64,000 nt of DNA, taken from assembly GCA_013306675.1 (NCBI GenBank), contig JABLUY010000064.1, forward strand, positions 62,001-126,000, in the 5' to 3' direction. Below the pieces are notes generated by a model. That model saw only the letters and a program-made list of their open reading frames with translations. It had not been told where the DNA came from and ran no database searches. The position numbers and the translations under genes were made by a program. Position 1 is the first letter of the stretch; each line of letters starts with the position of its first letter. The DNA is from Thraustochytrium sp. TN22 (Eukaryota; Sar; Bigyra; Thraustochytrida; Thraustochytriidae). Of the stretch, positions 4,352 through 40,479 are shown piece by piece.

Positions 4352-7300
4352 TCAGACAGCGAGCGGGTTCTCAACGTCAGCCAGGGCGGTCTCCTCGTCG
4401 GCCGCAGCGGCGTCGTGCCAGAGCTGGAAGTGACCCGGGCGGTGCTCCATGGCGTAAAAGTCGCGCGGCTGGCCGAGGGCAAGCGTGTAGCTCATGGTGG
4501 ACGCCCAGCGCAGGCCGAGGAAGTTGTAGTTCCAGATGCCGTCGGCGGGGACGAGGAAGGAGCCGAGGAAGCGGTCAGAGAGCAGGAGCTGGGGCGTGGC
4601 GAAGCATGAGGTGGTGTAGCCCTGCGCCATCTCTGCGGAGACGCCCTTGTTGGCCTCCGCCCAGTCGAAGCCGGCGTCCGTGACGCGGAAGGCTGCGAGG
4701 GAGCAGGTGCCGGGCGTGAGGGCGACGGTGACGACAACTGCCTGGTCGCGGTCCCAGTGGTCGCCCATGGACGCGGCGAGCTGGACGTCCTCCGGCGGGA
4801 GGTGCTTGAAGTGGTTGGGCTGTGTATGGATGACGCCGAGCAAGTGCAGGCCGTCCAGGGCCGGGTGGGAGGCGGGCGTGGGCACGGCCGAGGGCAGCTG
4901 CACGGTACGGTGCGAACCGGTCTGCGGCACCATGACGAGCACGCGGACCTCGCGCACCTGGTCGGTGTCGTCGGGCGGCGCGCCAAACATATAGGCGGCG
5001 CACTGGGTGCGGAGATCGGCAACGCGCACGAGCTTGGTGAGGAGGTTGCGCGGGAGCACGTAGGTGAGCCCGTGGTCGTCCGGCTCGTCGCCCTCGGTGA
5101 CGTAGAGGTGCTTGGTGCGCAGGTAGAGGTTGGCGGCGGAGACGGCGCGCTGCTTCCAGTCGTTCTTGGAGCGAAAGGTCTGGTTCTCGTACCCCGAGGT
5201 GGTCTGCACAACGATCTCGTCGCCGTGCTTGTTGACGGTGCGCGTGGTGACGGAGGCCATCTTGGCGGTCTCGCGCGTCTGCTTCTCGATCTCGGCCATC
5301 TGTTGGCGCTGCTCCGAGGGCGGGGCGATCTCCATGCCCAGAATGATGTCCCGCACCTCGGACTGCGTGAGCGAGTTGACGTTGACGTTATTGCGTTTGC
5401 CGTAGTCGTCAAGGATGAGGTCCTTGAGCGCCACCTCGACCTCGAGCCACTGCTCGTCCGTGAGTGTGGGCCACACGTGGTGCGGCTGCGTGGTGACGCT
5501 CCGATCAGGGCGCAAGACGATCTTGGTGCGCTCCTGAGAGACGTGCAGCGCGCGCAGGACGAGGATAAGGCGCGAGAAGGCGGTGTACGATGAGATGTTC
5601 TTGAGCCAGTCGTCGTAGATGTTGAAGAGCACCATCTTGGGCTCGGTCGCGTTCAGAATGAGCTCGCCGAACTTCTCGATCTTGAGGCACTCCTGAAAGG
5701 GCAGCTGCAGCTCGCTGGCGCGAAGCGTGATGTTGGGGAAGTCGAGCATGTGCGTCTCGAGCGCGTCGAGCAAGCCCTTGCGCGTGACGATGATCTGCTT
5801 GGGCTGCTCCTCGACGGGGAGCGAGCGGATGAGCGCCGCCGTCTCCTCGGCCGTCTTCCACTTGGCCAGCTGCGAGCGGCGCTTCTGGCCGGCCCACACG
5901 CTGGTGTGGATGATTTTGAGAAAGAGCTGGCCGGTGCGCGGGTTGAAGATGAAGACCGCGCCGTTGACCGGCTTGGTGGTCATATTGCCCTCGTTGGTGG
6001 TGTGCACCGTCACGCGATACACGTTGGTGTCATCGACGAACCAGATGGTCTGCGCCGAGAAGAGCTCGCCGTAGTTGGTGCTCGACAGGTGCGGCTCGGT
6101 GGGCTCCGAGGAGTACAGCTGCAGGCCCTTGCGGATGCGCTCGCGCAGCACGTAGAGCGCCGGGTTGGCCTTCATGATCTTGGTCATGCCCTGCGCCACG
6201 AGCGGCTTGAGACCGGGGAACCAGTTGCCGAAGCCGGCGTGGATGTTGTAGCACAGATCGATGCCCACCAGCAGGCCCGTGGGCGACGGGTAGAGCGTCA
6301 TGTTGTCCGTCGTGTAGTCCAGATACTTGGCACGCACGTAGCGCTCGATGTCGTGCGAGTCGTAGTCGCCCCAGCGCAGCTGCACGTCGATCCAGAACTT
6401 GTTCGAGGTCACGCCCGCGCCAAAGTCCTCGCGGTGGTCGTTCATGAGCGTGGGCTTGGAGATCTGCCAGCTCTGCGAGCCGAGAAGGAGGAGGTCGGCG
6501 CACGAGACGTTCATCTTGTACGACTTGCGCGGGTGGATGGTTTCCTTCTGCACCGTCTCGATGTCCAGCAGCTCCATCTGCTGGTCCAGAATCTGCGCGA
6601 TATCCGTCACCACGCTCTCGTGGATCTTCTGCCACAGATGGGCGCGGAAGATCTGGATCAGCGAGATCTTCAGCGTCGGGATCTTGCCGTGCATGAAGAT
6701 GCCCGTCAGATCCAGCTGCACCTGGAAGCCCACGTACACCGAGGACCGGTTAATGGTGGGCGACCACCACAGCGTGAAGCGGCGGTTGGGAATCTGGTTC
6801 AAGCCTGTGCGCTGCGCGTTGGTGAGCTTGTTCTTGAGCACCATGGCGTTCTCGAAGCCGGAGGACTTCTCCCAAAAGAGACCCTCCCACGAGGTGAACC
6901 CTGTGCCCTTGAAGAGCGTGTGCTCCAGGATGCCCTCGATGCCGCCCAGCGCCTGGATCACGTCCGTGCGGTAGGCGTTCAGGTTCCACAGCTTGCCGTC
7001 GTGTTTGGTGTGCGTCCAGTAAAAGGTCGAGAAGCGCATCACCTGGAACTGCTCAAAGTAGTTGCGTGCGCGCCAGCCCTTATCGTACGCCAGCGTGTGG
7101 CGATCCTTGCTAAAGAGCGTGTTGATGCGCGGGACGCCGCGCGCCCACGAGTCCTCCAGGTCCTCCAGCGTCAGCCGACGGTTCTGCGCCGTCGCCTCCT
7201 GGCGCTTGAGCGCGTAGTCCGCCCACACGCGCTGAGAGTCCGCGATCTCGCTCTCCCAAGGCACCACGTAGCGGTACAGGTTCGGGATCATGGCGTCCTG

Positions 7301-10300
7301 CTGGTGGCCCATGCCCATGCGAAAGTGGGTCGTCTCCGCGTCCATGGACTGCTTCGCGTACCGCAGGTCGCTCGCCGCGATGAGCACATTGCCCATGCTC
7401 AGCATGCCCAGACCGCCCACCTCCTTGGGCGAGTACATCACCGCCGGCGGGAAGCGCTTCGGGTCCTTGGAGTTCAGGCCCATCTTGATGCGCGTCTGGA
7501 TCTTGTTCTCGCTCTTCACCAGCAGGTCCAGCAGCTCCGGCGTGCAAATCACCGCCTCGCGGTACAGCACCATGAGGCCGATCAGCGCCGAGTTCCACTT
7601 GTTCGCCACCTTGACAAAGGTCGTGCTACCCGAGGACAGCATGATCTGACGCACGCGGTTCTCAAAGGCCTTGACGGCCTCCTCCGTCACGCGAAGGTAC
7701 GCCATGGCCGTGCGCTCCTTGGTGCGCTCCTGCTGGAGCGCCCACACGCCGTCCTTGAGCGAGGACAGCGAGTTGTCCGGCGTGCGGCATTTGGGCAGGA
7801 TGCGCACCTCGAAGCCGCACATGTCGAAGAGCACGTTCGGGTTGTCCTTGGAGTACACGCTCACAAAGGCGGTCTCCCACTCAATGGTGGTCACGGAGCG
7901 CGGCAGTCGGTTCTTGATGCTCCAGAAGGTCGCGCGCCCCAGGTTCACGTCGTGCTTCATGAGGCGCATGCGCGCGTCGCGCGGCCAGCACTTCTTGTTG
8001 TTGTACCCGACCACATTCTCGTTGTTCGGGTCCGGATGGTCCGTCAGGAAGCGCTGGATCAGGTCCCGCGAGTCCTCCTGGTCGAACCGGAAGAACATGA
8101 AGATCTGGTCCACGTACCGTGCGTACATGCGGATCGGGTGGCCCGCCTCGGTCTCCACGTCCTTGAAGCGCAAAAAGTCGTTCGGTGCCTCCGGCGGCCC
8201 GGCCATGTCCGAGGCCCGGCTCAGGCCCAGGATCAGAATGTCCAGCACGAGGCCGTAGTACTGAAAGACGAACGAGGCGAAGCCCAAACCGCGCACCATG
8301 CCATACCCGTTGGTGTGGCTCATGTCCTTGTAGTTGAGCACGATGTTGTTCTTGGCCGTGATGTAGTCGGCGATGTTGTGATCCACGATCAGACGCAGCA
8401 GCCGGTTCAGCAGCGTGAGGTCGACCTTGTCGAAGACGTGGTCCAGCCTCGCCTGCAACATCACGCCGCACTCGCCGCCGTCCGTGGACCACACCTGATC
8501 CAGGTTGTTCATGCCCTCGCACCACTTGTAGACAAGCAGCGGCGCCGGCTCCGAGTCCGCCGGCTTCACCCACGCGGGGAAGAGGTTGCGCTTGTCCGCC
8601 TCGTACCACAGGTACTGATCCAGATAAGCATCCGTCAGCTTCTCCATGCTGTCCACGTGGTACACCGGCTGCAGGTGCGAGAAGTGGTCCTTGAACTCGA
8701 TGTCCACCTCCTTGAAGGCGCGCTGCGTCAGCAGGTGGCGCTTGATGCGCGCCAGCGCCTCGTGCGGGTTGTCATACGCCTGCTCCACGAGCGCCAGCTC
8801 CTCGCGTTCCTTTGAGTTGAGCCGCACGGCGTTGACGTAGCGCTCCTTGAAGCGCTCCAGCGCCAGAATCAGCAGCTTGGTGTCATGCTTGTACGAGAGC
8901 GGCGGAAACGGAATGTGCGAGAACTTGCGCGACTCCAGCCAGTGCACCATGGTGGTGTAGATGGCCACCGCCTCCTCGGCTGACACGTATGGCCCATCCT
9001 TGAGGTAGTTGTGCTGGCGCTCCTGTTCCGCCTTGAGCCAGAGTCGCGTCATGCGGCCGAGGTTCTTGAGCACCACCGTCTTCTCCAGCGTCGCGCCGCG
9101 CCGGATGCGCTCGCGGTTGTAGTGCGTCACGTTTGCCCACCAGTCTGCCTTGGCCTTGACGTACCGCAGAATCATGCTCTCGATCGGCTGCGGCATCCCA
9201 GGCACCTTCCAGCTCACGTTCGCCTTGTAGCACCGCCACGCCTCCGACAGGTGCGCGAGGATCTGTTTCGCCTTGTTCCCCGCCATGCCCTCCGGCATCA
9301 TGTCCAAAATGTCGTGGATCACCGCCGCGCGCAGCTGCAAGTCGTAGTGCGACTCCACGCGCTGCTTCGTCACCGTCATGGCGATGCCCTTGCTGTGCCG
9401 GCCCTCCGTGTTGCGCCCCAGCAGGTTGCCCAGCCAGCCCTCCAGGAGGGGGATGATGCCGCGCAGAAAGTGCAGCCACACCTGCCAGTTCGGGGCCCAC
9501 ACACCCACACCCGGCCCACGCTGCACCGGCCCCGTGTTGAACCGGTAGTAAATCACGTGCTTGTACATCTTCGCCTTGCGCAGGCTGTGCATCGCACGGT
9601 ACTTGTGCCGGTACACGCCCGTCAGCGCGCCCACGTGAGCGAAGATGTACTGCAAGCCGTCCGCCAGCTGGAAGGCGTCCACGCTGCCCAGCCGGTACTG
9701 CACCACGCTGTCCACCACAATCTTGATCAGGCGAAGCAGCTCGCGCAGCAGGTGGAAGGCATTGCCGAAGCGCGACCGCTTGCGCTCCTTGGTCGTCAGC
9801 GTCTTGGTCGGCTTCAAGTTGAAGTTGTAGTCCAGGTGCAGGTATTCCAGATTCTTTTTGTGGATGAGCAGGCTCAGCATGTTGTGCCCCTGCCGTACCA
9901 CCTGAAGACCGGCCTCGACCCAGTCGATTTCCGTGCACTGGAAAAACTTGGTGCCCTTGAGGCTGCGCAGCAGATCGCGCCGCGGCGCACGAGGCGCGCG
10001 CTCCGCCGCACGCTCCTTGCGCCTACCCAGCACCCGCGTCAGGTGCAGTTTCAGAAGTTTCTGGTAGCTCACCTTGACCTTGGACGGGTACCCGCGCGGC
10101 GCGTGCTCCATGTACCAGTGATCCACTAGTTTCACGTCCACGCACCGCCGCGTGTTCCCGGACCGCTTGTTGAAGGGCGCTGGCGCCCAGTATAGCTCCA
10201 GTCCGTTGTGCGTCGACTCCGTGTACAAGGGCAACTCTCCCAAGAGCGCCTCCGCGCTGCCCTCCGGCAGTACAAAGGCCTCCTCCTCGCTTTCCTCTTC

Positions 10301-11486
10301 CCCATTGTCTGCCTCCTCGATCAGACGAGAGCGCAGGTCGCCCTCTGAGGCGTCCACGCTTGACGTGGCGCTGCCGTTGGCGGTGGTCCTGGCCTGCGCC
10401 CGGCTGCGAAACGAGGAGATTGGGTGCACGCTCGGGTCGAAGTAGAACGGAGGCAGGTCTGGGTCCTCGGCTCGCACGAGCGCCAGCGCCGGATGGTGAT
10501 ACGGCGCGTGAACGATCTTGCGCGGACGCGAGTTGTACACGTGGGGGAAGGCCACCTTGTACTCGGTGCGAATCTGCCGCCGCACGATGATCTTGTTGAT
10601 GTCGTTGAACTCGTTCCAGTCCTCGTCCTGGTCCTCCGGGTCCTGGGAGAGCGGCTCGAACTTGGGGCCGCCCGGGATGGCCTGGTTCAGCGACTTGGCT
10701 GTCAGCAGCGCCTCCTCCGTGAAGAGGTACCGCCGGTTCTCGTCCTGGCTCTCCGGCAGCAGCTGCGCGGCGAGCCGCTGCAGGTTCGCCATGGTGTCCA
10801 CCGGCAGCCGCCACTTCTTGTAGGTATCCCCGTTGACAAACTTGGTGCCCAGCAGCGGCTTGTGGTCATACAGCCAATCTGCCACGGCCGCGTCATCCTC
10901 TGGGTCCAGGTCCAGCTCGATGGCCTCCAGCGGCTCAACCTCCATCACGTTCTCCATGTAGTCCATCGGGGGCTCCTCGTCGTCAAAAGGCGGGAACCGC
11001 ATGCGCTTGAAGTGCCGCCGGTCACGCTTCTCGCGCCGCATCATGATCCACATGGTACCCCACTGCGCCAGGTACACGGGCTCGATCACGCGCGGCGTCT
11101 CGTTCACGAAGGTGATGGCGCCCGTGATATGGTACAGCACCTGCACATTGCGAACCTGCTCCCACGGCATCGGCAGGTTCTCCAACAGCTTGTACAGCGC
11201 GTGCGGCACGTACTTGAGGGCACCAAGGTACACGCTGCGGTCCGTGCGATATTTGCCGGACGTCATGTCGCCGTGATCGCGCACGATCTTGCGCAGGTGC
11301 TCCGGCGGAAGCAGCTCCTTGTCCGCCTCCGCATGGCCCGCGCGTTGTTTCGCCCCATGGCGCCTTCCCTGCACCTTGCGCCACGCCGCCGAGAGCTCCT
11401 CGGGCGACACGCTGCTCTGCGGCTGCAGCTGCTGCTCCTGTGGCGGCGCAGCTGGCGCGCGTGGCGGCTTTGGCCTCAGACCCGGG

Positions 11487-11534
<48 letters not shown>

Positions 11535-11557
11535 GTGCCGCCCGCGCCTGCCACCAT
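4352..11557 (-). CDS. PRPF8: Pre-mRNA-processing-splicing factor 8 (PRP8), U5 snRNP core
   Basis: PRP8 scaffolds the spliceosome catalytic centre, contacts U5/U6 snRNA and both splice sites, and regulates the helicase Brr2. The 2401-residue frame matches the family almost end to end (human 2335). The core begins near residue 83 ([20 protein letters not shown]), with the PRO8NT/PROCN blocks, the RT-like domain, the thumb and endonuclease-like linker, the RNase H-like domain (about 1825-2055, including [20 protein letters not shown]) and the C-terminal MPN/Jab1 domain (about 2165-2400, including [14 protein letters not shown]). Three regions differ from animals: an N-terminal 16-residue proline run made by a GGC repeat, an acidic Ser-rich insert of about 40 residues near 390-430, and an Ala/Glu-rich C-terminal tail after the conserved HRPGHF. 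No intron is needed across 7.2 kb. The ATG at 11557 is the first Met of the frame. Confidence 0.99.
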
Positions 11558-25003: not shown

Positions 25004-26461
25004 TCAGTCAAAAAGGCGCCAGCGTCCGAGAAAGAAATTCGAGCCTTGCCGCACCGGCGGCTGCCGCTCGGCATTCTCTTCAACAGGCGAAAGCGCCGCG
25101 GCGTCCTCTGCAGGGCCCGCATCGATTGGCACCTCGGTGGTGCGGCCCGTGGCGCGGCCCGTGGCGCGGCCGGTGCTGCGGCCGGTGCTGCGGCCGGTGC
25201 TGCGGCCGGTGCTGCGGCCGCTAGGACGGCCCTCAGGCCCCTCCTCGTCGTCCTCCTCGGTTAACGAGTAGGCTGAAGGCACGAAGGAGATGCTCGCCTT
25301 CTTGCGCGCGGAGCCCTTGAAGCGCTTGCCGACCGCGAGCAAGCGATGATCATCGACGCGGGAGATGTTGACCACAGTGCCACGTGTGAGCTCGGTCTCG
25401 GACAAAGGGCGGCCGCCCTTGGCTCGCGAGATCATGGTGGGCAGGCCATCATGCGGCATGGAGTGCTGCTCTACGAGGAGGGTGCGAACCACCACCCTGG
25501 CGCTGGTTGGAATGGTGATCCAGGAAAGCGGGAGGAGGTAGTCGTAGTAGATCCGCAGTGCGGGCCACGAGGCAAAGACAAAGTAGATGGCGCTCTGCAC
25601 CATGCCGTGCAGCGCCACGTGGTTCTGGACGGACTCCATGCGCTCCTTGGTCTGCTTGACCTCGGACGTGCGCAGGTACTCGTAGGCCTCGTTAAGCTGC
25701 CGGATGAAGGTGGCTTTGAGGTGCAACGCCTGCATGGCGATGATGGCGAGAATGACGGCCGTCCCACCCATGCAGGTAATCCAGGTGCCGACGCGCGCCT
25801 CCTCGGTGTCGGCGCCGAGCGCCACAAAGGCGAGCGCGCCAAGCACCAGGTGGCCCATGGTGAGGCGCATGGGCGAGCAACGGCTCACGGGAATGTTGCC
25901 AAGGGAGTTGGACGAATGCCGGCTCACCAGCAGCGAGATGAGCGCCGGCTGGTACAGGCTGGAGCAAAGGTAGAAGGAGGAACGCCCCAGCCACCAAAAC
26001 AGCGTTGGAGCCACGTCCACGCCCACGTGCATGGACGTGGGCCACACGATAATGATCACGCTCAGGACGATGACGCAAGGCGACGTGACAAAGAAGTAGA
26101 TGCAAAGCGTGAAGAGCGTCGTGTGCTCCGTGAGCTTGCGCTGACGCTTGGATTTGGACGCGTTCACCGTCTGCGCCCGCGCGAAGCGCCGCAGCTGCAT
26201 CCAAAAGGATGGGAAGTAGACCGCCTGCACCACCATGACTAGCGTAAGCAGCACGCCCCAAAGCGCGCGGATCACCGTGCCATTCACCTGGCAGTCCAGG
26301 CCCTCCGCGGACACCCAGTGGCTCGCGCCCGTGAAGCCCTCGTCGCACACGCACGCGCTCAGCGAGGTGCCGTCACCGCTCAGGAGCACGCACTGTCCGT
26401 GGCCTGAGCACTCTGCCTCCACCCACGGTGTCTCGTACAGCCCGGGGCAGTCGGCCGCCAT
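25004..26461 (-). CDS. Multi-pass membrane protein with N-terminal EGF-like module (485 aa)
   Basis: I do not recognise the family. Residues about 18-57 show an EGF-like cysteine pattern (CSGHGQC, CVCDEGFTG). About six membrane segments follow at roughly 63-84, 115-141, 151-179, 202-217, 224-247 and 288-316. Between segments 1 and 2 there is a basic loop (SKSKRQRK). The cytosolic-looking tail has a run of four-residue GRST/GRAT repeats (about 414-440) encoded by a 12-bp DNA repeat. There is no cleavable signal peptide at the chosen ATG, and an in-frame stop lies shortly upstream, so either the EGF part is exported by the first membrane segment or a leader exon is missing. A plasma-membrane receptor-like role is a guess. 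Confidence 0.82.
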   Translation of the reverse strand: MAADCPGLYETPWVEAECSGHGQCVLLSGDGTSLSACVCDEGFTGASHWVSAEGLDCQVNGTVIRALWGVLLTLVMVVQAVYFPSFWMQLRRFARAQTVNASKSKRQRKLTEHTTLFTLCIYFFVTSPCVIVLSVIIIVWPTSMHVGVDVAPTLFWWLGRSSFYLCSSLYQPALISLLVSRHSSNSLGNIPVSRCSPMRLTMGHLVLGALAFVALGADTEEARVGTWITCMGGTAVILAIIAMQALHLKATFIRQLNEAYEYLRTSEVKQTKERMESVQNHVALHGMVQSAIYFVFASWPALRIYYDYLLPLSWITIPTSARVVVRTLLVEQHSMPHDGLPTMISRAKGGRPLSETELTRGTVVNISRVDDHRLLAVGKRFKGSARKKASISFVPSAYSLTEEDDEEGPEGRPSGRSTGRSTGRSTGRSTGRATGRATGRTTEVPIDAGPAEDAAALSPVEENAERQPPVRQGSNFFLGRWRLFD

Positions 26462-27860
26462 CTTGCCACCAACGACGGCCAGGACTGTGCAGTGTAGCTA
26501 TGCCGCTGGCAGCCCGGCGGAGGAGACGACGCGCAGAGTCCAGCGACGACGGAGAGAGCGGAGGCGAGCCACTGCACGCTTCGAGCAGGGGAATACCCTC
26601 AGCTCGCTCCGCCGCGCGCAGACCTCGACGTGTCGCCGCCGCTCGCCCCCACGCGCGTCGTCCGCGTCGTCCGCGCCGCGCCCCGCGCTGTGCCCAGTGC
26701 CGGCCCCGGTCGAAAGTACGGAGGAGAGCTGAGCGAGCGCTCGACGCACGCCGCCGCCGCCGGCACGGGCGCTCGCGAGCGACGCGGACCGGCCGGGCCG
26801 GCCGGCTGGCTGGCAGCGCCCGCTTGCCGCGAGGCCCGCCGCGCGACCCCCCCCTCGCGCGCCGCCGCGCGCGCCGTCGGCCGCGCGCGCCGCCGCGCCG
26901 CGCCTCCGCTGCTCCCGTTCGTTCGAAAGTTGGGCTTTGGGATCGCGACTGGCGCGCGCGAGGCGAGTCCGCCGTGAACCGATCTTCCGGCGCGCGCGCG
27001 CTGGCGAGCGAGCAGGCGGCGCTGCGCTGCGCTGCGCTGCGCTGGCTGCGCTGGCTGCGCTGCGTGCAGGCGCCGGCGCTTCGCCTGGCCGGGCTGGGCT
27101 GGGCTGGGCTGGGCTGGGCTGCTCGTCGCCCGCTTGGCGACGCGAGTCTGCGGCTTGCAGGCCACGCACGTGCCAAGCTGCACGCGCCGCCAGGTTGCTC
27201 GTCTGCTCGCGCCTGCGGCCTGCGCAGCACTGCAGCCAACTGGCCAAGCCAAGCTGCGACTTTGCGCACAGAGTCTGGCCGGGCCGGTCGCTGCCGGTGC
27301 GAGGACGTGCGACTGGGCCTGGTTGCGACTGGCGGCCAGCGGGCGAGCACGCAACTTGACGCAAGCAAGCTTGCTTGCAAGCGAGCAAGCAATGGCAAGC
27401 AAGCAAGCAAGCAAGCAAGCAATGCAGCAGCCAGGCTGCCGCTGCCGCACCGCGCCGGCGGCGGTGCCTGAGCAGGTTGACAACTTGACTTTACGAGCGG
27501 CTTACGAGCCTCCTCACGCCAGTTGTTGCCACCCGTCCGCGGCCGCCAGGGCCCTGGCAGCTGGCTGGTGGCAGGCAACAACCCCGCGGTGTTTGGTTTT
27601 CACTGTTTTGTTTGCCGCCAGCCTGAGGCCGCCAGTGTTTTCATGTCCCCAGGAAAGCTCGAGAATCAAGCGCCAGCGTGAATCCTGGCCATGGCTGGCT
27701 GGCACGTGGGCATTATTGCGGGGAGGCGGATGGCAATGTTCACGCCGCAAGGGCGACTCGGAGGCGAGGGAATGAATCAGGGATCAGAGGCAGATCAAAG
27801 GGTTCTGGGCTACTAGTGGTGCAGGCAGGTCAAGGTCGAGGTCAAGGTCCCGGCACTGCG
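26462..27860. other. Intergenic region between membrane gene start and MYB stop
   Basis: Open frames here are Arg/Ala/Ser low complexity on both strands. Simple sequence includes GCTGG/GGGCT pentamers (27096-27122) and a run of AAGC tetranucleotides (about 27361-27421) preceded by its inverted complement. No gene is supported. Confidence 0.55.
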
Positions 27861-28264
27861 TCAGACCGTGGCGGCGGCGTGGCGCTGCTGCTGCTGCTGC
27901 GACGCGGCGCAGAGTGGCTTGAGGTCAGGGCCTCCCGGGCTGCGCGCCTCGTTGCTGAGCGTGGCGTGGCCGTCGTGGGCGTTGGAAAGAGTGGAGCTGT
28001 TGACGGGCGAGTGCGCGACGAGCGCGGCCTCGAGCGCCTCGAGCGAGAAGTCGAACTCCTGGCCGTTGGCGGCGGATGGCGTCTGCGAAGGCAGCTGAAA
28101 GATGCCGCCAGAGGAGCTGCCGAACTCGTGCTTGGCGGAGCCCAACGCGGGGATGGAGAGGCTATTGGCCTGGCCGGGCTGCAGCTGCTGGCCCTGGCCG
28201 GGCGCAGCGAGGAAAAACCCCTGGCCGTCCTGGGGCTGCTGCGAGCCCATGTGCGGACGCGAGC

Positions 28265-28301
<37 letters not shown>

Positions 28302-30441
28302 ATGGCTCTGGCGCTGCTGCTGGCCCTGCGGCGTGCGCAAGCCCCACCTGCCAAAAAGAGGGGTGTTACGCGTGGACAAAAGCGGTGCCATGGGCGAGTT
28401 AATCTCGAAGCGCGGCGAGAAGAGCTGCGCACCACCCTGCGCCGGCGTGGGCGGCACCATGAAGTTACTGCTGAAGTTGCCGTAGCTGCCGCCGAAGATG
28501 GGCGAGGCCATGATGTTGTGCGACAGGTTCATGCCGGCCATCTTCGGCGAGAGCTGGCCCAGCAGCGAGACAGCCTCAGCGGACGCTGGCGTGAGCTTCG
28601 CCAGCGACCCGAGCTCAAAGTCGTGCAGGCCGCGAACGGAGGACGGAAAGGTCTCTACCTGCAGGTCCGGACGCTTCGTGATGCCATTCTTGCCCTTGGC
28701 GGTGCGACGCTGCTTGGCCGACTTGCCCGCACTGGACTTGGTGCGCTTCGTGCCGGAGCTCTTGGACGCGGACCCACTCTTGCTGCTCTTGCGCGCGCTT
28801 GACGACTTGGGCGGGGTCTTGGCCAGGTCCTCCAGCGACGTGAAGGCCGTCTTTGCGGACCCCGGGCCGGGCGACAGCAGCAGCGGCGGCGGCGGCGGCG
28901 GAGCAACCTCAGACGCCGACTCCTGCTGCTGCTGCTGCCGCTGCCGCTGCTTTTGCTTCTGCTGCTGCTGCTGTCGCGACTGCGAGTAGGTTGACGTTGC
29001 GCCAAGGCTCCCCGCGCTACCGCTACTCGTCCCCCGGAACACGGCAAGCGGGGGCGGCGCCGTGCCCTGCGCCGACCCCTGGCGGTGGCCCCTCAACGTG
29101 GCATCAGCGCCATTTGCGGACCCAAGCGGGTTGAGCGGCACGCGTCCTGGCTTCGCGCTACCTGCGCTGGCGACCAGCGCAGGGCTGGCCGCCGCTTGCT
29201 GCTCAGGAGCACTCGTCGGCCGGTCGTACTGAGCCGCTGGCAGGTCGGCCTCCTTCTGCTCCATCTCAAGGTCGTCCGCAGCGGTACCCGCGTCCGCCGC
29301 CTCGGTTGTGTCATCCTGGGCGGTGCCATCCTCGTCCTTGTCCGCGGACTGACGCGGGATGATCTTGCCATTCTTGGTGATGGTGATATGTTTGAGAAGC
29401 GGGTGCTTGGGCATCTCACCGCCCGTCTCCGCGGCGCGCGCCGCCTGCCGTGCCAGGCGCCGCATCGTCGAGTAGTATCGGTTCTTGATGGCGTTATCCG
29501 TGCGACCATGCACGTACTTGGCGATCTCTGCCCACTGGTTGCCCAGCTTGGCATGGTACTCGAAGATAATGCGGTCTTCCTCCTTGGTCCAGGTACCCTT
29601 CTTCACGTCCGGGTTCAGGTGGTTGTGCCAGCGCTCGCGACACTGCTTGCCGATGCGGCCCGGCAACTCCGCGGCGATCAGGCTCCACGACTTGGCGCCC
29701 AGACGCTGCACGGTGGCATGCAACGTGCGGTCCTCCTCGGCGCTCCAAGGCCGCTTCGACAGTGACTTCTCTTCCTTGCCAATGTGCATGAAGGCGAACT
29801 TTTTCGCATTCGTGCTGTTGTTGTTCTCATTCGGCGACGGAGAGATCAGCGATGCCTGCTGCAGCTGAGCGCGCCCAGGCCCGTGCGGATGCATGTACGG
29901 CAGCCTCGCATGCTCGTAGTAGTGGTGGTGCCCCTTGTGCGCACCGGGGGGCGGCGGCGCAAGCCGCGACGGTGCACCATGGCCGCCCATGGCCGACATC
30001 AGGTTCATGCCGCTGCCGCCCAGGTGGTGATGCGAGTGGTGATGTTGCTGATGTTGCTGGTGCTGGTGCGCCTGGTGGAGCTGGTGCTGGTGATGATGCT
30101 GGTGCTGGTGCTGGTGCTGGTGAATCTGGGGCGACTGCTGGTGATGGCCGTGATGGCCATGGTAGCTATGAAGCGGCGTGTTGCTCAGGCTGCCAGCGTC
30201 CAGGCCCATGTGCTCGGGCGAGTAGATGGACGCCATTGCGAGCTTGGCGGCGGCGTCCTTACTCGGAGTCAGCAGTGGCACCAGGAAGCCACGTGCACCC
30301 AGGCCCACTAGCTTGGGGTGCTGCGAGGACAGGCTCGGGGTTGCTGCGGTACCTGACGACGAAGAAGAGCTACTACTGCTGCTACTGCTGCCGGCAGTCG
30401 CGATGCTAGCGATGCTGACGCCCTGCGCCTGCTGTCTGCTC

Positions 30442-30473
<32 letters not shown>

Positions 30474-30476
30474 GGA

Positions 30477-30509
<33 letters not shown>

Positions 30510-30812
30510 GGTGCTAGTGATGCTGCTTGTACTGGTACTACTGGTGTTGTTGCTTCTATTGCTTCCGCTCTGCGTGATGCTCCCGCTCACGGCAGAGCCG
30601 GCAAGACCAGGTTTGCTGACGGCCGAGGCGGCGGAGCTCGTGCTAATCGAAAGACTCCCGCTGCTCGTACTGCCGGCAGCGGCAGCACCGCTGGTGCTGG
30701 CGCTCGCCATCGTGATGGCCCTGGCTCCGCTTCCCGCTGTCGCCGAGAATGGGCGCGGGGCCGCAGCCTGCGGTGAGAGCACTGGCTTACCGGCGGCCTT
30801 GAGCGTCGTCAT
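27861..30812 (-). CDS. R2R3-type MYB transcription factor (983 aa)
   Basis: Two MYB repeats lie near residues 350-452. R2 reads KRPWSAEEDRTLHATVQ with the Trp triplet spaced about 20 residues, and WHNHLNPDVKKGTW links to R3 (GTWTKEEDRIIFEYH), which ends GRTDNAIKNRYYSTMRR with Tyr in place of the third Trp. This linker and end are typical of c-MYB-type DNA-binding domains. The rest is low complexity: Ser/Thr-, Asn- and His-rich stretches before the repeats, and Gln/Ser-rich ones after, including a pure CAG-encoded Gln run near residue 850. A basic Lys/Ser patch near residues 680-710 may be a nuclear signal. The frame opens at a GTG at 30866; the first ATG is at 30812 and is used here. Target genes cannot be inferred. 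Confidence 0.93.
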
Positions 30813-32674
30813 GCTCGTTGCGATGCCCGCGCGTCCCACCAGCCCGCTCCTGCCACACGCAGGCACGCAGGCAGGCCTTTGCTCGCTCGCGTGCTCGCTC
30901 GCTCGCCCGCTCGCTCGCCCGCCCGCCCGCGCGCGCGCCGCGAGCTTGGCGACCTGGAGCTCGTACTACTGCTGCTGCGGCCTTGCCTCACCTCGACTCG
31001 CCCCACTTGAACTCCACAGGGGCAGTCTGCCTCTGACTGACCCTCCTCCTGCCGGCGCGGTGCTGCGAAATGGCCACCGACAACACGGAGTCGCCACGCA
31101 CTGGGTCTCCGCCGCGCTTCCCGCTGCGCTGTGCTCGACGAGAGCGCGCGGCAAACTGACCCACCTTGGGCTCGGCGCCTCGCCCCGGGGCCAGTCTGCG
31201 AGCCCGCACCGCGCGCGCTTGTTCCAGGCCGCGGTCCCGCGCCGCCGCAGGCCCGCAGGGGCTGGTTGCCCGCCCGCCTGTCACCGCTGCTTGATTGTGA
31301 TTGGATTGCTCGCTCGTTGATTGCTTGCTTACTTGCTTATGGCATGCTCAGCTTGCACGATCGGCGCCCCACGAGCAGGCTGGATGATGGAGAGCGCGGC
31401 TGCCGCTCGAGAGCCCAGGTCACGGTACGCGTCGTGGGAGGGGCGGCCTTGAAACCGTCCTCCGGAGTGGCCCAGCCTGCGTGCGGACGCGCTGCGCTAC
31501 AGGGAAGGAAACACAGACGCGGCAGCCGGCCGGCCGGGCGGCTGGTTGCAGCAGCAGCCTGGCAGCCCAACGCGGCCGATTCTTCCTTTTGGGACGCCAC
31601 ACCGCCCGTGCTCGGCGTCCGAGGCGCAAGCCCAAGCAACGAGTAGAATTCGGGCGAGACTCACGGACGGCCACGGACGCGATGCGATGCGTTCTTGCCT
31701 CGGCACCAGCCTGGTGGCTGGCTATGTGCCTCGTCCCCGCTCGCCAAGGCCTCTCACCGCCAGGCGCTTTGCTTAATTACTTGCAAACCCGGCGCCGCGC
31801 TGGGCTCTTCAAGTTGAGCTTGCCTCTAACTTAATTAGCCAGCTAGCTAGAGGCTTACAGTGACTTGGTAGCTCTAAGCTTCATAGCTCGGGCTTGCGCT
31901 GCTTTCCTAATCACAACCGCACACCCGGCACGCGTGCCACGCTCAGCTCCTGCTCAGATGAGACTCCAGGGGCCTGGGCGCCGTCCCGTAAGACGCTAAG
32001 CAATCTCCCGCCGCGTGCTGGCAGGGAGGCCGCTCGCCTCGCCTCGCCTCGCTTCCCCTCGCTTCGCCTCGCTTCTCAGGCTGTCTCGTTCGCAGACGCG
32101 CAGCCCGCCATGATCACCGCTGCACCGCCGAAGGAGAAGGACATGGACGAGGGCAGGGAGGACTCCAGCCTCGCCCTGCGAGGTGCCGGAGCTACCGCCC
32201 AGCCGAGCTTTGCGTGCCCCGCTCGCCACTGGGGCGCGGCTTATCGGCCGGGACCGACCACCCCTGGGGGACCTCCGACTCCTCCTCGCCTCAAGCCCGC
32301 CAAGGCGCCGTCCGCCAACCCAGCTAGCTATCGACCGAACTTGCCTTTGACCGTTGCACATTGCGCACACCGTGCGGTATCAGAAAATGCAGGGGTACGC
32401 AGAGGTGTGCGTGCGGGTTCGCACCAGACCGCGTACGGAGTCCACTTGGATCGGACGATCGCGCACCTGATGTGCGCCGCAGACGGGGTTCGCAAAAGCT
32501 TCACGCTCCGCGGCGCGCTCGAATGGACGCAAGAGTGTGGTCAATGAAGCAAGCACCAGTCGCAGAGGAGGAGCGTGTGCGGCTTGGGCGCTGCACGCAC
32601 CCGCACGCAAGAAACCGCGGCGGATGAGTGAGTCTTCAAAAACTTGGTTCGTGAGAGCTTGAGACGCCACGGTC
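30813..32674. other. Long divergent region between MYB and LRR genes
   Basis: It contains CTCG/CCCG tetranucleotide runs (30889-30932), CCTCG/CTTCG pentamers (32036-32078) and a GCTA cluster (31835-31850). A frame from an ATG at 32110 to 32547 (about 145 codons) is open but has poor protein character. I do not call it a gene. Confidence 0.5.
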
Positions 32675-35600
32675 ATGCCGCACGAGGCCGGGCTGCCGCC
32701 CTTGCTGGGCGCCGTCGCGGTGGCAAGGTAGGTCGCAGTGAGTCGCATGGGGGATAGAGACGGACACGCCCTCTTACGGCGTTGCATGCGTGCAGGGAAA
32801 GAGCAGCGGCGGCAGCCAAGGGCGCAACGCAGCGGGCTGACCGCACATCGCAGCCCGGGGCGGAGCCGGGGGACGAAGACAGCTACGAGGGCTTTCTCGA
32901 GGATGCCTTTGCGGAGGTCATGGGCGTGCAAGGGCAAGCAACACTCAGTCGGGAGCACGCTGCGATCGTGGAGCGCGCAGAGCGGCGAAGGGCGCAGGCT
33001 GGACCGCGCCGCACACGCCCCAAGCCAGTATCGCGGCGCGAGAGCCTCCCCGCCAAGGAGGAGTGCGCCCCGCACCTCCGAGCCCGTGAGCTGCAGGTTG
33101 AGGAGCAGGTCGGCGCCTGGCTCAGCGGGAAACACACCACAGAGCCCTCGACTGCATGTACGGACTGGGTCGACGATGACATCCAGCCCGCACCGGCGAG
33201 CCCACCGCGCACAGCAGCCAAGACTGGCCGCAGGAGCCCGCGCCGTGCAATTGTGAAGGTTGTGCCGCGGCCTGCGCAAGGCAGTGACAAGACAGCCGCC
33301 GTCTCAAGCGATGGCGATGGCTCTCCGAACCTTGACGACGACGACGACGAGGAGGAGGAGGAGGAGGAGGAGGACAGCCGCCAGACCGCGCGGGAGGAGA
33401 AGTTGCTGGCGCTGGAGAACGCGGCGCCGCGCAAAAGCGTCTTCTTTGAGGTGCTGCAGAGTCCTGAGCTGGAGGCCTGCCCGGACCGCGCCAACCGGCA
33501 CGTCGCCTCACAGCTCATGATGATCCAGCATGCGCGTCAAGCCGGCTTGTACCCGGAACCCGTGGCGGTCTTTCGCTCCGACGACCAGCGGAACTCCCGC
33601 AAGTTGAATCTTTCACATCGCGGATTCGGCGACAGCAAGTTGCTAGCTGCCACCACGGTGGCCCTGCGCGAACTGGACCTCGAGGTGCTGGACCTCTCGA
33701 GCAACCGTCTCTCAGATGCTGGTGCCGCCGCCATCTTTGCGGACCTCGCCAAGGCCGTGATACCGGACGCTACGGCCGCGCCTCCAGATGCTGAGGAGGA
33801 TACTGGCCTTGCAATTGTCCTCTCGCGAAATGCATTGGCCTGTGGTGCCGCGGACGCCTTGGCTCAGGTGCTCCGGACGCCAATTTCCATCTGCGAGCTC
33901 GACCTCTCTCACAACAAGCTAGACTCGCAGGCGGCCGCCGTACTGGCGGACTCCCTGTCAAGTAACGGAGCGCTGCGCAGCCTCGACCTGTCCTACAACC
34001 CGCTTCGTGCGGAAGGGGTCGTGCAGCTCGCGAGCGGCCTGGCGCAGAACTCGGGACTGCGCATTCTCGCGCTGGCTTGGACGCAAATGACGGCCACGGG
34101 CGCACTCGCCATTCTCCAAGCCATCCTCGGAAACTCGCGCCTCGAGTTGCAGGCGCTGGATTTGAGCAGGAACGCTGTCGGCCGCGGCATCACTGGCTCG
34201 CTCGCACAGCTCCCACCTGCCGTGAGCGGGGACGTCCTTGCGACCCTGATCCGACTGTTGGACCCTACGACACGTGGGGGTGGCGGCTCCTTGCCCCAGA
34301 CAACGCAGACCGCACGTGCACGGTCTTCGAGAACACAGCGCGAGCCCCCGCTGCTGACATCGCGGCGCGGAGGCGGCGGAAGTGCGGGCGGTGGCGGCCG
34401 CTCGCTCGTGCACCTGCATCTCGGCCAGAACCTCCTGTCCGCAGCGGCGTGCCAGCGTATTGCAGAGGCGCTGCGGCAGAATCACACTCTGGCGGGGCTT
34501 CATCTGGATGGCAATGCCGCCTATGTGGACGCCATGGGCTTCGTGCACGAGGTACCCGAGGCGGAGCGCACAGCTTACGCAGCCGAGAGGGACGCAAGCG
34601 AGGACACGCGTGACCTCATCCATCAGTCGGCACCACTCCCCATGGAGGCGCGCTACGACATGCTGGCTGGGGCGTGGGATGCGCGCGCGACCTGCTGGAT
34701 CTGCGCGGGCTTTCTACCGAAGCGCTTCGTGCTCTGTGCGGAGAAGGGGAGCACCGTCATGCTCCACACGAACTTCGATGAGCCGCCCTGGGCCGGCTGC
34801 CCCATGACGGAGTGCAAGGCGGCCCGCTCGAGCCCAGCCAGCGAGGACAGCACGGAGGAAGAGTCCAATAATGCCCTTGCGACGCGCATCGGTCGCATCG
34901 TTGGCAGCGCCTTGCGCCTCGGCGAGCATCTTTTCACCACAGCCGAATACATCGTGCATCGTGTCTGCCCGCCCGGGGAGATTGTCTTCTTCTTCACGGT
35001 CGATGGCCAGGTCGTCCTGAGCGATCTGGAGCAGCAGATCTTGTGGTCCAAGGCCGCAGTCTGCAACAAAGTGCCGGTCCCGCCGTTGCCGACTAGCGGA
35101 GTTCACGAAGGCAAACTCATGCTCAATGCCGCGCCTATCGAGGCGCGACACACGCTCTCGCACCGGGCGCTCGGTGCAGACAAGGGACTCATTTCCGCCG
35201 AATCGAGCTTCCGCATGGCGCACTCCCCATCCACCTGGGCCCTGCGCCGCGACACGGATGAGAGCAGCCTTGGCCTTGGAAGCACAAGCGGACTCGCTGA
35301 GGCGCACGGGCGCCAAAACCAGCACCAGCGGCCGGCGGAGGAGCAGCGATTTGATCCGATGCATCTGTACCTGCCAGGCGCGCTCCGAACATTTTGGGCG
35401 CGGTGCCCTCCGCGTGTGTTGGTGCAACAAACTCTCGTTGGAGTGGAAACACCACCATCGATGGCAACGGCCGCGTCGACCTTGAGCACGAAGCGCCAGA
35501 GCGTGGGCGCAGAGACCTGGCTCGGCGATCGCTTGCGCGCGCACTTCATGGCCCAGTTCGGAGTCAACGCGTCCGCAGAGCTTTTCCAGCTGGACTGGGC

Positions 35601-36699
35601 CGCAAGCGAGCTGCCAACAGTGATTGCATCGCGGATGGAGCAGGAGCGGACCCGCGCTCTCCTGGAGGACCACTTCGAGGTGCTGAGCAACGTATTCCTG
35701 TTCTACGCATCGGGCGACTGCGCCACTTTCGAGCCACGCTCCGCGCTGTTGCTCAGTCTGGACGGTCTGTTGCGCATGCACGAGGACCTGACAGCGGCAC
35801 CCGAGGGCGCAGAGCTCTGCGACGAGGCGCAAGTGGAGGCCATGTACCACAGTGCTTTGCGCGAGCAGCACGCACGCTTTGAGCAAGAGTGCAAATCGCG
35901 AGGCATCAAGGTGGCGCGGCAAAAGTCGTTCAGCACGCTCGGGGCCACGACGGTCCTCGAGGAATCGCACGAGGCGTGGGGTGTATCGAGGCCCAAGTTT
36001 CTCGCGGTACTGGTGCGCATGGCACTGGCTAGCTTCGAGGGCCACGAGCCTCGGGAGAGCGTCGCGCTGCAGCTCCTGCTTACGAAGCACGTGCTTCCCC
36101 GCGCCAAGCTTTTCGACCGGCGCGCGTTCTTGGAGGCTCGGCTGGCGGACGACGCAGTGCACGTCATCTTCCGGCGCAACATCCCCACACTCCTGCGCAT
36201 GTACGCAACCAACGCTGGACGCCACCAAGCTGGCTTCGAGATGGCGTGGATGTCCGTCGCGGAGTGGCTGCGTGGACTGGAGCAGGCCGGCGTCATGGCA
36301 AACTCGGCAGCAACAATCGCCTTTCGCGCGAAAACGCGGCGCCAGAGCTCGCCCCGGGCACGAGCGCCGCGGCGCAAAAGTATGTCGAATCCAGTTCTGG
36401 TGGACTTCGACGAAGCACGCGGTGAGCTGGAGAAACAGCTGGCCACGCTCGTGTTCGCCGCATGCATGCCCATCGCCGCACAGGACGAGCCGACGCACAG
36501 TCGATACTACAAGATGGATTTCCCTGCGTACATGTTGGCGATGAGCTCCGTCGTGGCGTTTCCGTGGAAGCCGGCTCAATCAAAGACCACATCATCCAGG
36601 GTAACATTCTCCGTGACCCGCGCCGCAGCGCGCGCCGGAGCACCCTGCACTCCAGCGCGAAGGCTCGTCACTCGACGCAGGACCTCCTTCGCCGCCTGA
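32675..36699 (+). CDS. Large leucine-rich-repeat protein, two exons (about 1318 aa)
   Basis: The model is 32675-32727 joined to 32796-36699. The long frame has no ATG at its upstream end; an ATG at 32675 with a GTAGGT donor and TGCAG acceptor gives a clean in-frame start (MPHEAGLPPLLGAVAVAR then ERAAAAA). Residues about 200-220 are a pure Asp/Glu run. Residues about 290-530 hold RNase-inhibitor-type LRRs (LDLSSNRLSDAGAAAIFADL, LDLSHNKLDSQAAAVLADSL, LHLGQNLLSAAACQRIAEAL), with a Gly/Ser spacer between. The C-terminal 700 residues are largely helical and unrecognised, with a Cys-rich patch (WICAGF... CPMTECKA). No membrane segment is visible. The final 45 residues are Arg/Thr/Ala-rich; another frame there looks more protein-like (see findings). 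The role is unknown; ciliary or signalling scaffolds are common among such proteins. Confidence 0.82.
32728..32795 (+). other. Spliceosomal intron of the LRR gene (68 bp)
   Basis: The donor is GTAGGT and the acceptor GCGTGCAG. Splicing joins AAG to GGAAAG, keeps frame, and supplies an ATG to a frame that otherwise lacks one. The intron length is short but within the range known for protists. Confidence 0.75.
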
Positions 36700-37523
36700 G
36701 CAAGATCCTTTGACCATTCTGATGCCTCCACTCGGGCCGACAGTCAGGAAGGAATTCAATCAGCCACGTTTCAAGCCTCCTCTCTCTCGATTTGATCAGA
36801 CTAAATGCTATGGACCGGCCGGTCGCTCGCCGTGCCCGCTTGCCTCCACGCCTGCCTGTTTGCGTGCGCGGCCTGCCTGCCTGCCTGCCTGCTACCTGCC
36901 ACCTGCCACCTGCCTCCGTTTGCTCGTGCTCAGGCCGCCGCCCCTCGGTGTTCCGGCGGGCCGCCAACGCCCGGACTGCCGCAGTGACCTTCGGGCCGCG
37001 GGCGGAGAGTCAAGCTGCGCGTCGGGCTAACTTGCAGCGGCAAACTGGGCATTTCGGCAGAGGCGGTGTTCTTGCCGCGTCAGTTAGAGCTGCAGCGCGC
37101 GCGGCAGCTGCGCTGACAGGTGGTGGAGCGCAAGCGAGCGGGCAGCGCAGCTAGGCGGCAAGGCGAGGCAGGGCGAGCTGGAGGGGGCGGCAAGGCGCCG
37201 GCAGACCTCCTTGGGCGTCGCTCGCGGTCGCTCGCGGCGACGCGCGACGGCGCGGGCGGCGCGGGCGCAGCGCGTCGCACCGCGGCGCAGTACGCGCTGG
37301 GAGGCTGGGCAGGCTAGGCTGACTGTCTGGTCTGGACGGCGCGCGGCGTGGCATCCGCCGGAGGAGGCCGGCGAAGGCTCGACGCTCCGGGTGGCCTGGA
37401 GGATCTCCTTAGCCAAGGCCAAGGCAGGCGTGCGAGCGAGCGAGCGAGCGAGCGAGTGATCGAGCGCTAGTTCGCGCGTCACCGTGCGGGAAGCCAGCTT
37501 CGACAGCCTGAAGCCGCGCAAGC
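36700..37523. other. Spacer between LRR and KH genes
   Basis: It contains CCTG runs (about 36868-36892), CCACCTG triplicates (36897-36917) and a GCGA tetranucleotide run (37433-37457) just upstream of the KH gene, probably in its 5' leader. No gene is supported. Confidence 0.55.
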
Positions 37524-39155
37524 ATGAACGCGAACGCGAAGCCGTTCGGGCACGAAGCCATGACGCACAACGTGGACACCCACTTTGACGTCCTGGGCGA
37601 GGGAGCTCGGGGCATCGCACAGCAACCCGCTCCGCCGCCGCAGCCGCAGCAGCCGCAGCAGCCGCAGCCGCAGCCGCAACAGCAGCAACGTCCGTCGCAG
37701 CAGCCACAGCAGGAGCCGCTATCCGTGTGGGGCCTCTCGCTTCCGGGCACTGCGGTGCAGTCGGACGAGTTCGAGCAAGCGCTGGACTTTATCATGCGAT
37801 GCAAAGACCAGAACGCCAAGGAGGCGGAGCTTTTCCTCAAGGGTACGCTGCGACTCCTGCGACATCGTATGAATCTGGACGAAGACGACGACGACGACGA
37901 GGCCGGCGCGACCGGGCGCGAGTTTGATGCCTTCATCGGCGACGAGACGGACGACAAGCAGACAACCTTGGTCCTGCTTGTCCCGGGCCAATCGCACATC
38001 ATCGGGCACCTGATCGGCAAGTCCGGCGCAGAGATCACCAAGCTTGAGTCGGCCGCCAATGTGTCGATTCGGGTGGAGAGCAAGAGCAAGATGCCATTGG
38101 GCTCGTCGGACCGGCGCATCTTTATCGTTGGGTCGGTTGCAAACTCGGTGTACACGCAGCAGCGCATCACTCAGCGCATTCACGAGAAACTGCGCGAGGA
38201 GGGTGTGAAGCAAGAGCTTATCAAGATCGTGATTCCGCACGAGGCCGTGCCGCATCTGATCGGCAAGGGCGGCTCGAGCATCAAGCGGCTGCAGGTGCTT
38301 TCGCAGGCGCGCATCCAGGTGGAGCAGGAAACCTCGGTGGTGCCGGGCACGATCGGGCGCACCGTGACGATTCAGGGCACGCAATACGAGCGGTCCATGG
38401 CGCAGTATCTGGTGTCCAGGCAGATGACGGAGAACCGATCAACGCCCAAGGATTGGCAAGGTGGCCTCCCACAGCCGCAGGCGCGGCACATGAGCGGGCC
38501 ATTCACGCTCTCTGCGGGCGGGAGCATGATCTTGGACGACTACATCCCGGGCGTGCCGCCCATCCCGGGCATTGGCGCGCCCTTGGCTGGCAGCAAGCAG
38601 CTCGGCTCCAAGACGGCCTTTTATAACCCGTCCGCGTCTGAGGCGGGCGGTGGCCTTGGCTCTGGGGGGCACGACTCCGACAGCGGGAGCCAGGAGGTGG
38701 ACCCGGACCGCGGCTGGTTCAACGGCAAGCCGGACGACGGGACGCCGCTCGCGTCAATGGACCGCGGAGGGGGGAGTGGCGGCGGGCCTAGTGGAGGTGG
38801 TGGCGTTGGCAGCGGGTCTGGCGGCGGCGGCGGCGGCGGCGGCTTTGCCGAGAACGGAGCTGACATGACCAGCGAAGCGTTCGCGACCTCCACTCAGCAC
38901 TACGAGCGGCTCGTGCCGAATGGCGCTGTGGCACATCTGATTGGCCGCAATGGCGCGGTCATCTCGGATATCCAGAAGAAGTCTGGCACGCGCATCAGCT
39001 TCTCCAAGAACCCTGGGCCTCGCGCCGCCGAGGTCGGCATGGGCATGGGCCACTACCAGAAGGTGACCATTATTGGGACGCCCTATGCAATTCAGCTGGC
39101 GCAGAACCTGATTTCCAAGAAAATCATCGAGCACGTGGGCGAGGACTTTGAATGA
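37524..39155 (+). CDS. Triple KH-domain RNA-binding protein (PCBP/NOVA-like, 543 aa)
   Basis: Three KH domains are recognised by their GxxG loops: KH1 near residue 165 (IIGHLIGKSGAEITKLE), KH2 near 250 (VPHLIGKGGSSIKRLQ) and KH3 near 475 (VAHLIGRNGAVISDIQ). KH domains bind short single-stranded, often C- or U-rich, RNA or DNA. The 2+1 layout with a long linker matches PCBP/hnRNP K and NOVA proteins. The N-terminus has a Gln/Pro-rich segment (about 33-66), and the linker between KH2 and KH3 is Gly-rich with a near-pure Gly run. An acidic Asp run sits ahead of KH1. The ATG at 37524 is the first Met of the frame. It probably regulates mRNA splicing, stability or translation; targets are not predictable. 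Confidence 0.95.
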   Translation: MNANAKPFGHEAMTHNVDTHFDVLGEGARGIAQQPAPPPQPQQPQQPQPQPQQQQRPSQQPQQEPLSVWGLSLPGTAVQSDEFEQALDFIMRCKDQNAKEAELFLKGTLRLLRHRMNLDEDDDDDEAGATGREFDAFIGDETDDKQTTLVLLVPGQSHIIGHLIGKSGAEITKLESAANVSIRVESKSKMPLGSSDRRIFIVGSVANSVYTQQRITQRIHEKLREEGVKQELIKIVIPHEAVPHLIGKGGSSIKRLQVLSQARIQVEQETSVVPGTIGRTVTIQGTQYERSMAQYLVSRQMTENRSTPKDWQGGLPQPQARHMSGPFTLSAGGSMILDDYIPGVPPIPGIGAPLAGSKQLGSKTAFYNPSASEAGGGLGSGGHDSDSGSQEVDPDRGWFNGKPDDGTPLASMDRGGGSGGGPSGGGGVGSGSGGGGGGGGFAENGADMTSEAFATSTQHYERLVPNGAVAHLIGRNGAVISDIQKKSGTRISFSKNPGPRAAEVGMGMGHYQKVTIIGTPYAIQLAQNLISKKIIEHVGEDFE

Positions 39156-39303
39156 CTCTGACATTGGCAAGGCCCCGTGCCTCCTCGACTAGCGTGCTGC
39201 GGCTGGTGTACAAACGTACACGTCAGCTACGGAGAGATGGAGGGAGAAACGGCGACAGGCTTTACGCCAACGTCTTTTCTTCCCTCGGTAGGATTTCGGC
39301 TCC

Positions 39304-39342
<39 letters not shown>

Positions 39343-39657
39343 CCTCCCTTGCCTCCCCTTTCTTCCCCCGAACCTCGGAATTCCCTCACAGTTTACAGGA
39401 CAGGAACGGCCCCCTGCGATGCTGATCGGTACGAAAACATGACTCATCCCATCCTCTCTCGTTTTTGCTTGCTGTTGTTTTGCTCGGGTTGAGGTTGGGT
39501 GGTTGGTCACTGGAAGAAAATGAGGTCACTCCTCGCGTGCTCTGTCTGTTCTGTCTGCCTGTCTGTCTGTCTCAGGCTGTCTGTCTCTCTGCGAGTTTGT
39601 CTGTAGGTGTGTCGATCCGTTCCTGCTTCTCTCTCTCGTTGTTTACACTAAGTTAGC
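39156..39657. other. Spacer between convergent KH and SAS-6-like genes
   Basis: It includes a CT dinucleotide run (39306-39338), pyrimidine-rich sequence up to 39370, and CTGT/CTGC tetranucleotides (39540-39600). These probably lie in the two 3' UTRs. Confidence 0.6.
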
Positions 39658-40479
39658 CTACTTTGCGTGAGTGGTGCCGAGCCCGGCGGGCCGGCGGATC
39701 TGCAACAGCAGCGACGGGTTCTTGAGTTTGACGAGGGCGTTCACGTCGGAAAGGCGGGCTTGCATGAGCGCCAGGCGCGACTTCATGGCGTTGTAGCGGT
39801 AGGCGATGTGCTGGCGGACGGCCTCCTCGGGCGCGCGAGCAAAGTCGCAGGTGAGCAGCTCGACAAACTTGTACTCCATATTCTTGATGAAGTCGAGGCG
39901 CGACGGCCCATCCTCCTGCAGCACGAAGATGGCAAGATGCGTGTTGGGCTCCTTGATACAGCTGTTGAGCATGCGGGTGAGAACACGTGCGTAGTTGTCA
40001 AAGTCGATCATGAGCTTCTGCTGCTCCTGCATGAGGCGGAAGCCAGTCTCGTCGACGGTGTGCGCATAGAGGAAGAAGAGGTCGGCCTCGCTGCTGAGCT
40101 CGATACGCAGCGACTCGGGCTCGTTTTCCGAGCCCAGCACGAGCACCTTGACCTTGATGGCCTCGAGCGTGCCCACATCCTGCGGGCCGTCCTTGGACTC
40201 TTGATAGCGCAGCTCCAAGGGGACCTCGCGGTCGAAGACACACTTCCATCCGCCCTGCACGCTCGGGTCCATCGCCTCGATGGCCGAGAAGTCGAAGTGC
40301 GTCAGTCCGAGGCCAGCATCCTGGTGCGCTGCCGCCGACCCCGGCGCAGCACCTCCTCGGGGGCTGGACGCCGCCGCTGATCGTGCGGACGAGGTCAGCG
40401 CGCCCACGCCGCTGTGTCCGCGCCGTGCCAGCGCTGCGGCGCTGCTCGCCGTGGACCGCGGCGAGAAGGACGACTCCAT
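39658..40479 (-). CDS. SAS-6-like protein (SAS6L type), head domain without long coiled coil
   Basis: SAS-6 builds the centriolar cartwheel; SAS6L is a related shorter protein described in Toxoplasma and other flagellated protists. Residues about 75-215 match the SAS-6 N-terminal (XRCC4-like) head: SLRIELSSEADLFFLYAHT then GFRLMQEQQKLMIDFDNY parallel the family LTDDxDPFFLY and QSLKxQQGLLVDF blocks. F197 in LDFIKN aligns, by eye, with the Phe of NPFKHL that mediates head-to-head contact in SAS-6. After the head only a short helix of about 35 residues remains, where true SAS-6 has a long coiled coil. The first 70 residues are Ser/Ala-rich. The frame opens at a GTG; the first ATG is at 40479, giving 273 residues. 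The stop follows a normal C-terminus, so it does not look truncated. Confidence 0.85.
   Translation of the reverse strand: MESSFSPRSTASSAAALARRGHSGVGALTSSARSAAASSPRGGAAPGSAAAHQDAGLGLTHFDFSAIEAMDPSVQGGWKCVFDREVPLELRYQESKDGPQDVGTLEAIKVKVLVLGSENEPESLRIELSSEADLFFLYAHTVDETGFRLMQEQQKLMIDFDNYARVLTRMLNSCIKEPNTHLAIFVLQEDGPSRLDFIKNMEYKFVELLTCDFARAPEEAVRQHIAYRYNAMKSRLALMQARLSDVNALVKLKNPSLLLQIRRPAGLGTTHAK

Follow-up and report, generated by a model that had tools for sequence, protein, structure and literature searches.

The gene at 39658..40479 and its domain layout

The DNA analysed here is a window of 64,000 nucleotides with a G+C content of 65%, in which the minus strand at 39658..40479 carries a coding sequence of 273 amino acids, referred to here as SAS6L, in a single unbroken frame that starts with ATG in the context GCCATGG. 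Upstream of this ATG the frame continues for several codons more until a stop, with a GTG but no other ATG among them. Because G+C in codons 79-273 is 87% at the third position and 33% at the second, the frame reads as a coding gene. The gene is real and intact-looking. Convergent with it is a plus-strand gene for a protein with three KH stretches (37524-39155); the 502 bases from the SAS6L stop to the end of this neighbor contain repeats rich in CT, and each of the three frames is interrupted there by stops. Two other minus-strand frames lie in the window: PRP8, a core spliceosome protein, occupies 4352-11557 with 2401 amino acids in a single unbroken frame, and a 561-residue open frame at 42171-43856 matches none of the Pfam families up to E 1, while several hydrophobic stretches, judged by eye, suggest that its product is a membrane protein.

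The SAS6L product opens with an Ala/Ser/Gly-rich extension of residues 1-58 (40306..40479, minus strand), which has no Pfam match and is probably disordered judging by its composition; the PDB match starts within it, at residue 47. Residues 81-213 (39841..40239, minus strand) form a SAS-6 head domain (Pfam SAS-6_N, PF16531), with a score of 136.5 bits (cut-off 25; E 8.2e-40) that lies well outside what chance would give, and SAS-6_N was the sole family found in Pfam up to E 1, in agreement with the stand-alone SAS-6 head that a first-pass annotation had placed here. Sixty residues follow the head, and their longest proline-free stretch spans 37 (218-254), close to the approximately 35 residues of helix that had been anticipated; the long coiled-coil tail that follows the head in SAS-6 is absent from this frame. 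From the proline-free stretch and a heptad score, residues 214-253 (39721..39840, minus strand) are assigned to a short helix at the C-terminal side whose heptad-like pattern is weak; it runs into KLKNPSLLLQI at residues 251-261 (39697..39729, minus strand), an end in common with Toxoplasma SAS6L (KLKSPSLLLHL). A structure predicted from the single sequence, without an alignment, is of very low confidence (mean pLDDT 38.3, pTM 0.32), so that the strands and the helix at 218-253 that it displays would fit a SAS-6 head without counting as evidence for one.

Assignment to the SAS6L family

The best PDB match of the protein was chain 20 of 9y9z (235.8 bits, E 5.6e-69, residues 47-265), while the second, and the best among centriolar SAS-6 proteins, reached 44.5 bits and is an entry named 'Centriole protein' that we take to be Chlamydomonas SAS-6. 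The 9Y9Z entry is the deposited model of the Toxoplasma conoid fiber, and its chain 20 is 263 residues long, the length given for SAS6L in Table 1 of the accompanying paper (PMC12819142). A four-sequence alignment with 174 shared columns, tail included, was prepared from the window protein, Toxoplasma SAS6L, the SAS-6 encoded elsewhere in the same genome (contig C77, described below) and Chlamydomonas SAS-6. Identical columns numbered 95/174 between the window protein and Toxoplasma SAS6L and 59/174 between the two SAS-6 sequences; the window protein shared 44/174 with Chlamydomonas SAS-6 and 38/174 with the SAS-6 of its own genome, and the corresponding counts for Toxoplasma SAS6L were 39/174 and 34/174. 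In a likelihood test of these four sequences, a grouping with one SAS6L reference rather than a full phylogeny, the pairing of the window protein with Toxoplasma SAS6L was best, and both alternatives were 40 log units worse (AU p 1.1e-5). Identification of the window protein as SAS6L, the type named in the first-pass annotation together with the grouping expected of it, is thus close to certain, SAS6L being a short relative of SAS-6, which builds the core of the centriole. Scans built on the alignment of the window protein with Toxoplasma SAS6L revealed no relatives among 222 stretches of viral contigs, or among 255 stretches of bacterial and archaeal genome contigs, that fit either of two peptide patterns.

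The tails of the window protein and Toxoplasma SAS6L have the stretches RYNAxKSxLALxQARL and KLKxPSLLL in common and, because the latter forms the end of both proteins, the short tail is read as a family trait and not as a truncation. Heptad periodicity was assessed with a simple in-house score that compares a real stretch with shuffled versions of itself. The score of window residues 214-252 was equaled by 50 of 2000 shuffles, and that of a Toxoplasma SAS6L stretch at about the same place, with a different aligned start, by 19 of 2000; in ten 39-residue pieces of the tail of the genome's own SAS-6, the shuffles reaching the real score, out of 500 each, numbered 63, 40, 415, 0, 1, 42, 2, 26, 103 and 418. 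The heptad score alone makes a weak case that the short SAS6L helix might pair, a case strengthened by the conservation of the tail stretches with Toxoplasma SAS6L.

The position of Phe145 in Chlamydomonas SAS-6, presumably a contact residue of the head dimer, is occupied in the four-sequence alignment by Phe in both SAS-6 sequences and by Tyr in both SAS6L sequences. Here the first-pass annotation, which had seen a conserved-looking Phe at the dimer position, was mistaken, as the aligned residue is Tyr203 (codon 39871..39873, minus strand). Tyr203 may fill the same pocket as the Phe of SAS-6 and, being aromatic, may still permit head dimerization.

A second SAS-6 gene and the host genome

Among the candidates scored in the genome (37.9 Mb in 453 contigs), SAS-6_N was placed at two loci, the window gene and C77:37695-38051, and a genome search with the window protein returned the same two, the C77 copy weakly (27.7 bits). 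The C77 frame comprises 677 residues when counted provisionally from a GTG, and has a proline-free run of 341 residues behind the head; it matches Chlamydomonas SAS-6 at 95.1 bits versus 21.5 for Toxoplasma SAS6L. A separate full-length SAS-6, which the first-pass annotation had named as support for its reading, is therefore present, and the co-occurrence with SAS-6 that typifies SAS6L is seen in this genome as two SAS-6_N loci, of which that on C77 is long-tailed. According to the available text of PMC3697468, SAS6L generally occurs alongside SAS-6 in the same genome, with Giardia as the named exception.

The host is probably a marine thraustochytrid, a placement resting mainly on a PUFA-synthase-like pair at C124:26703-41142, in which a 2083-residue frame adjoins a frame of 3044 residues on the opposite strand. 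Together with its neighbors in frame, the 3044-residue frame scored 2539.7 bits against the PfaA model (cut-off 1010.1), which matched in 11 of 14 control genomes but above the cut-off in none of them. Model positions ~1288-1704, which we take to be carrier domains, were matched three times consecutively, and this triple match is read as tandem carrier domains; the part of PfaA matched by the 2083-residue frame is presumably the ketosynthase. In the part of PMC9702510 available, thraustochytrids are described as the main group in which PUFA synthases of eukaryotes, whose subunit A has tandem carrier domains, have been identified. A stramenopile host, which the first-pass annotation had deemed probable, agrees with this C124 match. 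On another contig (C410, ~25857-39995), a 5691-residue open frame has four matches to a PfaA part that we likewise assume to be the ketosynthase, and it may encode a large, modular synthase of polyketides or fatty acids.

Components expected of a motile flagellum were also found, namely IFT57 on C57 (328.6 bits; 3 of 14 controls match, none above the cut-off) and, in two pieces, a radial-spoke protein that matched in 0 of the 14 controls. Taken with the PUFA-synthase genes, they suit a flagellate thraustochytrid. A second, weaker match to the IFT57 family lies in a 970-residue frame at C301:20631-21611 (102.7 bits). The genomes of three DHA-producing thraustochytrids are given as 58-66 Mb in the portion of PMC6050695 at hand, larger than the present 37.9 Mb, a difference that neither proves nor excludes the placement.

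Genes of apical character were sought as well. The conoid protein DCX carries a doublecortin domain; a genome search for this domain gave no match, and since the same search matched in none of the controls it is uninformative. The doublecortin family was likewise not found, up to E 0.5, in the clearest p25-alpha gene, which has a weak match to WW, and the idea of an apicortin, which combines p25-alpha with doublecortin, led nowhere. A 334-residue ORF on C233 (L005:1483-2487) has two p25-alpha stretches; its WW match is weak, at 22.6 bits below the cut-off of 26.9.

Proposed function and comparison with known SAS6L proteins

A plausible mechanism follows the biology of SAS6L elsewhere. The conoid fiber of Toxoplasma bears linear arrays of SAS6L homodimers with SAS-6-like interfaces (PMC12819142), and another study places the protein in the conoid wall and not solely in the top rings (PMC7951837). 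In Trypanosoma brucei it is located near the basal plate, and RNAi left flagellum morphology unchanged, so that its role may be slight; overexpression produced filaments in both Toxoplasma and T. brucei (all as described in the available passages of PMC3697468). By analogy, the heads of the window protein would join face to face, the short helix would pair two molecules, and the head dimers would build short arrays, linear or ring-like, that lack the spokes of a cartwheel. Where a flagellate has no conoid, the simplest reading would have these arrays serve as a small scaffold at the distal flagellar transition zone. That a thraustochytrid SAS6L forms short head-dimer arrays at the flagellar transition zone, cellular location included, is considered probable.

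It is considerably less likely, although the most serious of the alternatives, that this SAS6L, like that of apicomplexans, serves a cortical or apical microtubule structure and not the flagellum. Among solved proteins, its nearest relative belongs to the Toxoplasma conoid fiber; however, no conoid is known from thraustochytrids and, because the sole solved SAS6L found is apicomplexan, closeness to a conoid protein says little about location. SAS6L of Plasmodium berghei was reported not to be in the gamete flagellum (PMC4919640, as far as its available text goes), which favors a cortical or apical site.

The remaining alternatives concern the protein itself. DNA alone would permit splicing across the stop codon into extra 3' exons encoding a long coiled coil, but such a gene structure is very improbable, as the match with Toxoplasma SAS6L extends to residue 265 of 273 and the 502-base gap, with its repeats and three-frame stops, leaves scant space for such exons. 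Recent copying and truncation of the SAS-6 on C77 would explain the head in common, yet the column identities (38 versus 95), the rejection of that grouping in the likelihood test and the tail end in common with Toxoplasma SAS6L make this origin highly implausible. A relationship to the DNA-repair proteins XRCC4, XLF or PAXX, which have a fold similar to that of SAS-6, can be set aside, since no such family matched in Pfam up to E 1, contrary to what the first-pass annotation had named as a possible refutation, and 29 of the 30 distinct PDB sequences up to E 1 were SAS-6 or SAS6L, the other being a ParB-domain nuclease at E 0.98.

The window protein is, accordingly, a well-preserved additional SAS6L and not a new type of protein. 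The literature naming SAS6L is, by titles, mostly apicomplexan. No pairing of 'SAS6-like' with a thraustochytrid was found in the literature, and pairing thraustochytrids with SAS-6 yielded only a study, by its title, of squalene in Chlamydomonas. The passages available mention no stramenopile SAS6L, the word 'stramenopile' occurring there with striated-fiber assemblin or in reference titles, and those of the basalin paper mention SAS6 once and SAS6L not at all (PMC6392502); a stramenopile SAS6L may nevertheless already be among those whose species are listed in Fig. 3A of PMC3697468. SAS6L has been reported from diverse eukaryotes, has been placed before their last common ancestor, and is among the proteins invoked in deriving the apicomplexan conoid from flagellar parts (PMC3697468, in the text available). 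The earlier expectation that an intact copy would inform the origin of the apical or basal-body protein therefore holds only modestly, because the family was already broadly known and dated before the last common ancestor.

What the gene does offer is a well-conserved SAS6L in a flagellate, probably free-living stramenopile, and thus a system for testing which location came first. Stramenopiles are an outgroup to the alveolates. A bolder and distinctly tentative proposal is that, on flagellar transition-zone microtubules, the thraustochytrid SAS6L assembles the same linear array of head dimers as Toxoplasma does on its conoid fibers, the conoid array being a re-used flagellar one. If true, a culturable stramenopile would display the older form of the conoid SAS6L array.

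Comparison with the known systems places the window protein closest to SAS6L of Toxoplasma gondii (gene 301420, 9y9z chain 20), which likewise has a SAS-6 head, the Tyr, a short helix and the KLKxPSLLL end, and from which it differs in that the matched stretch starts at residue 47 versus 9, i.e., 38 more N-terminal residues in the window protein. By the description in the available text of PMC3697468, SAS6L of T. brucei belongs to the same family. Centriolar SAS-6, whether of Chlamydomonas or from C77 of this genome, has the head domain in common with the window protein but differs in its long tail and in having Phe where the window protein has Tyr. Apart from its additional N-terminal extension of ~58 residues, the window protein thus fits the description of SAS6L as a SAS-6 head with little else.
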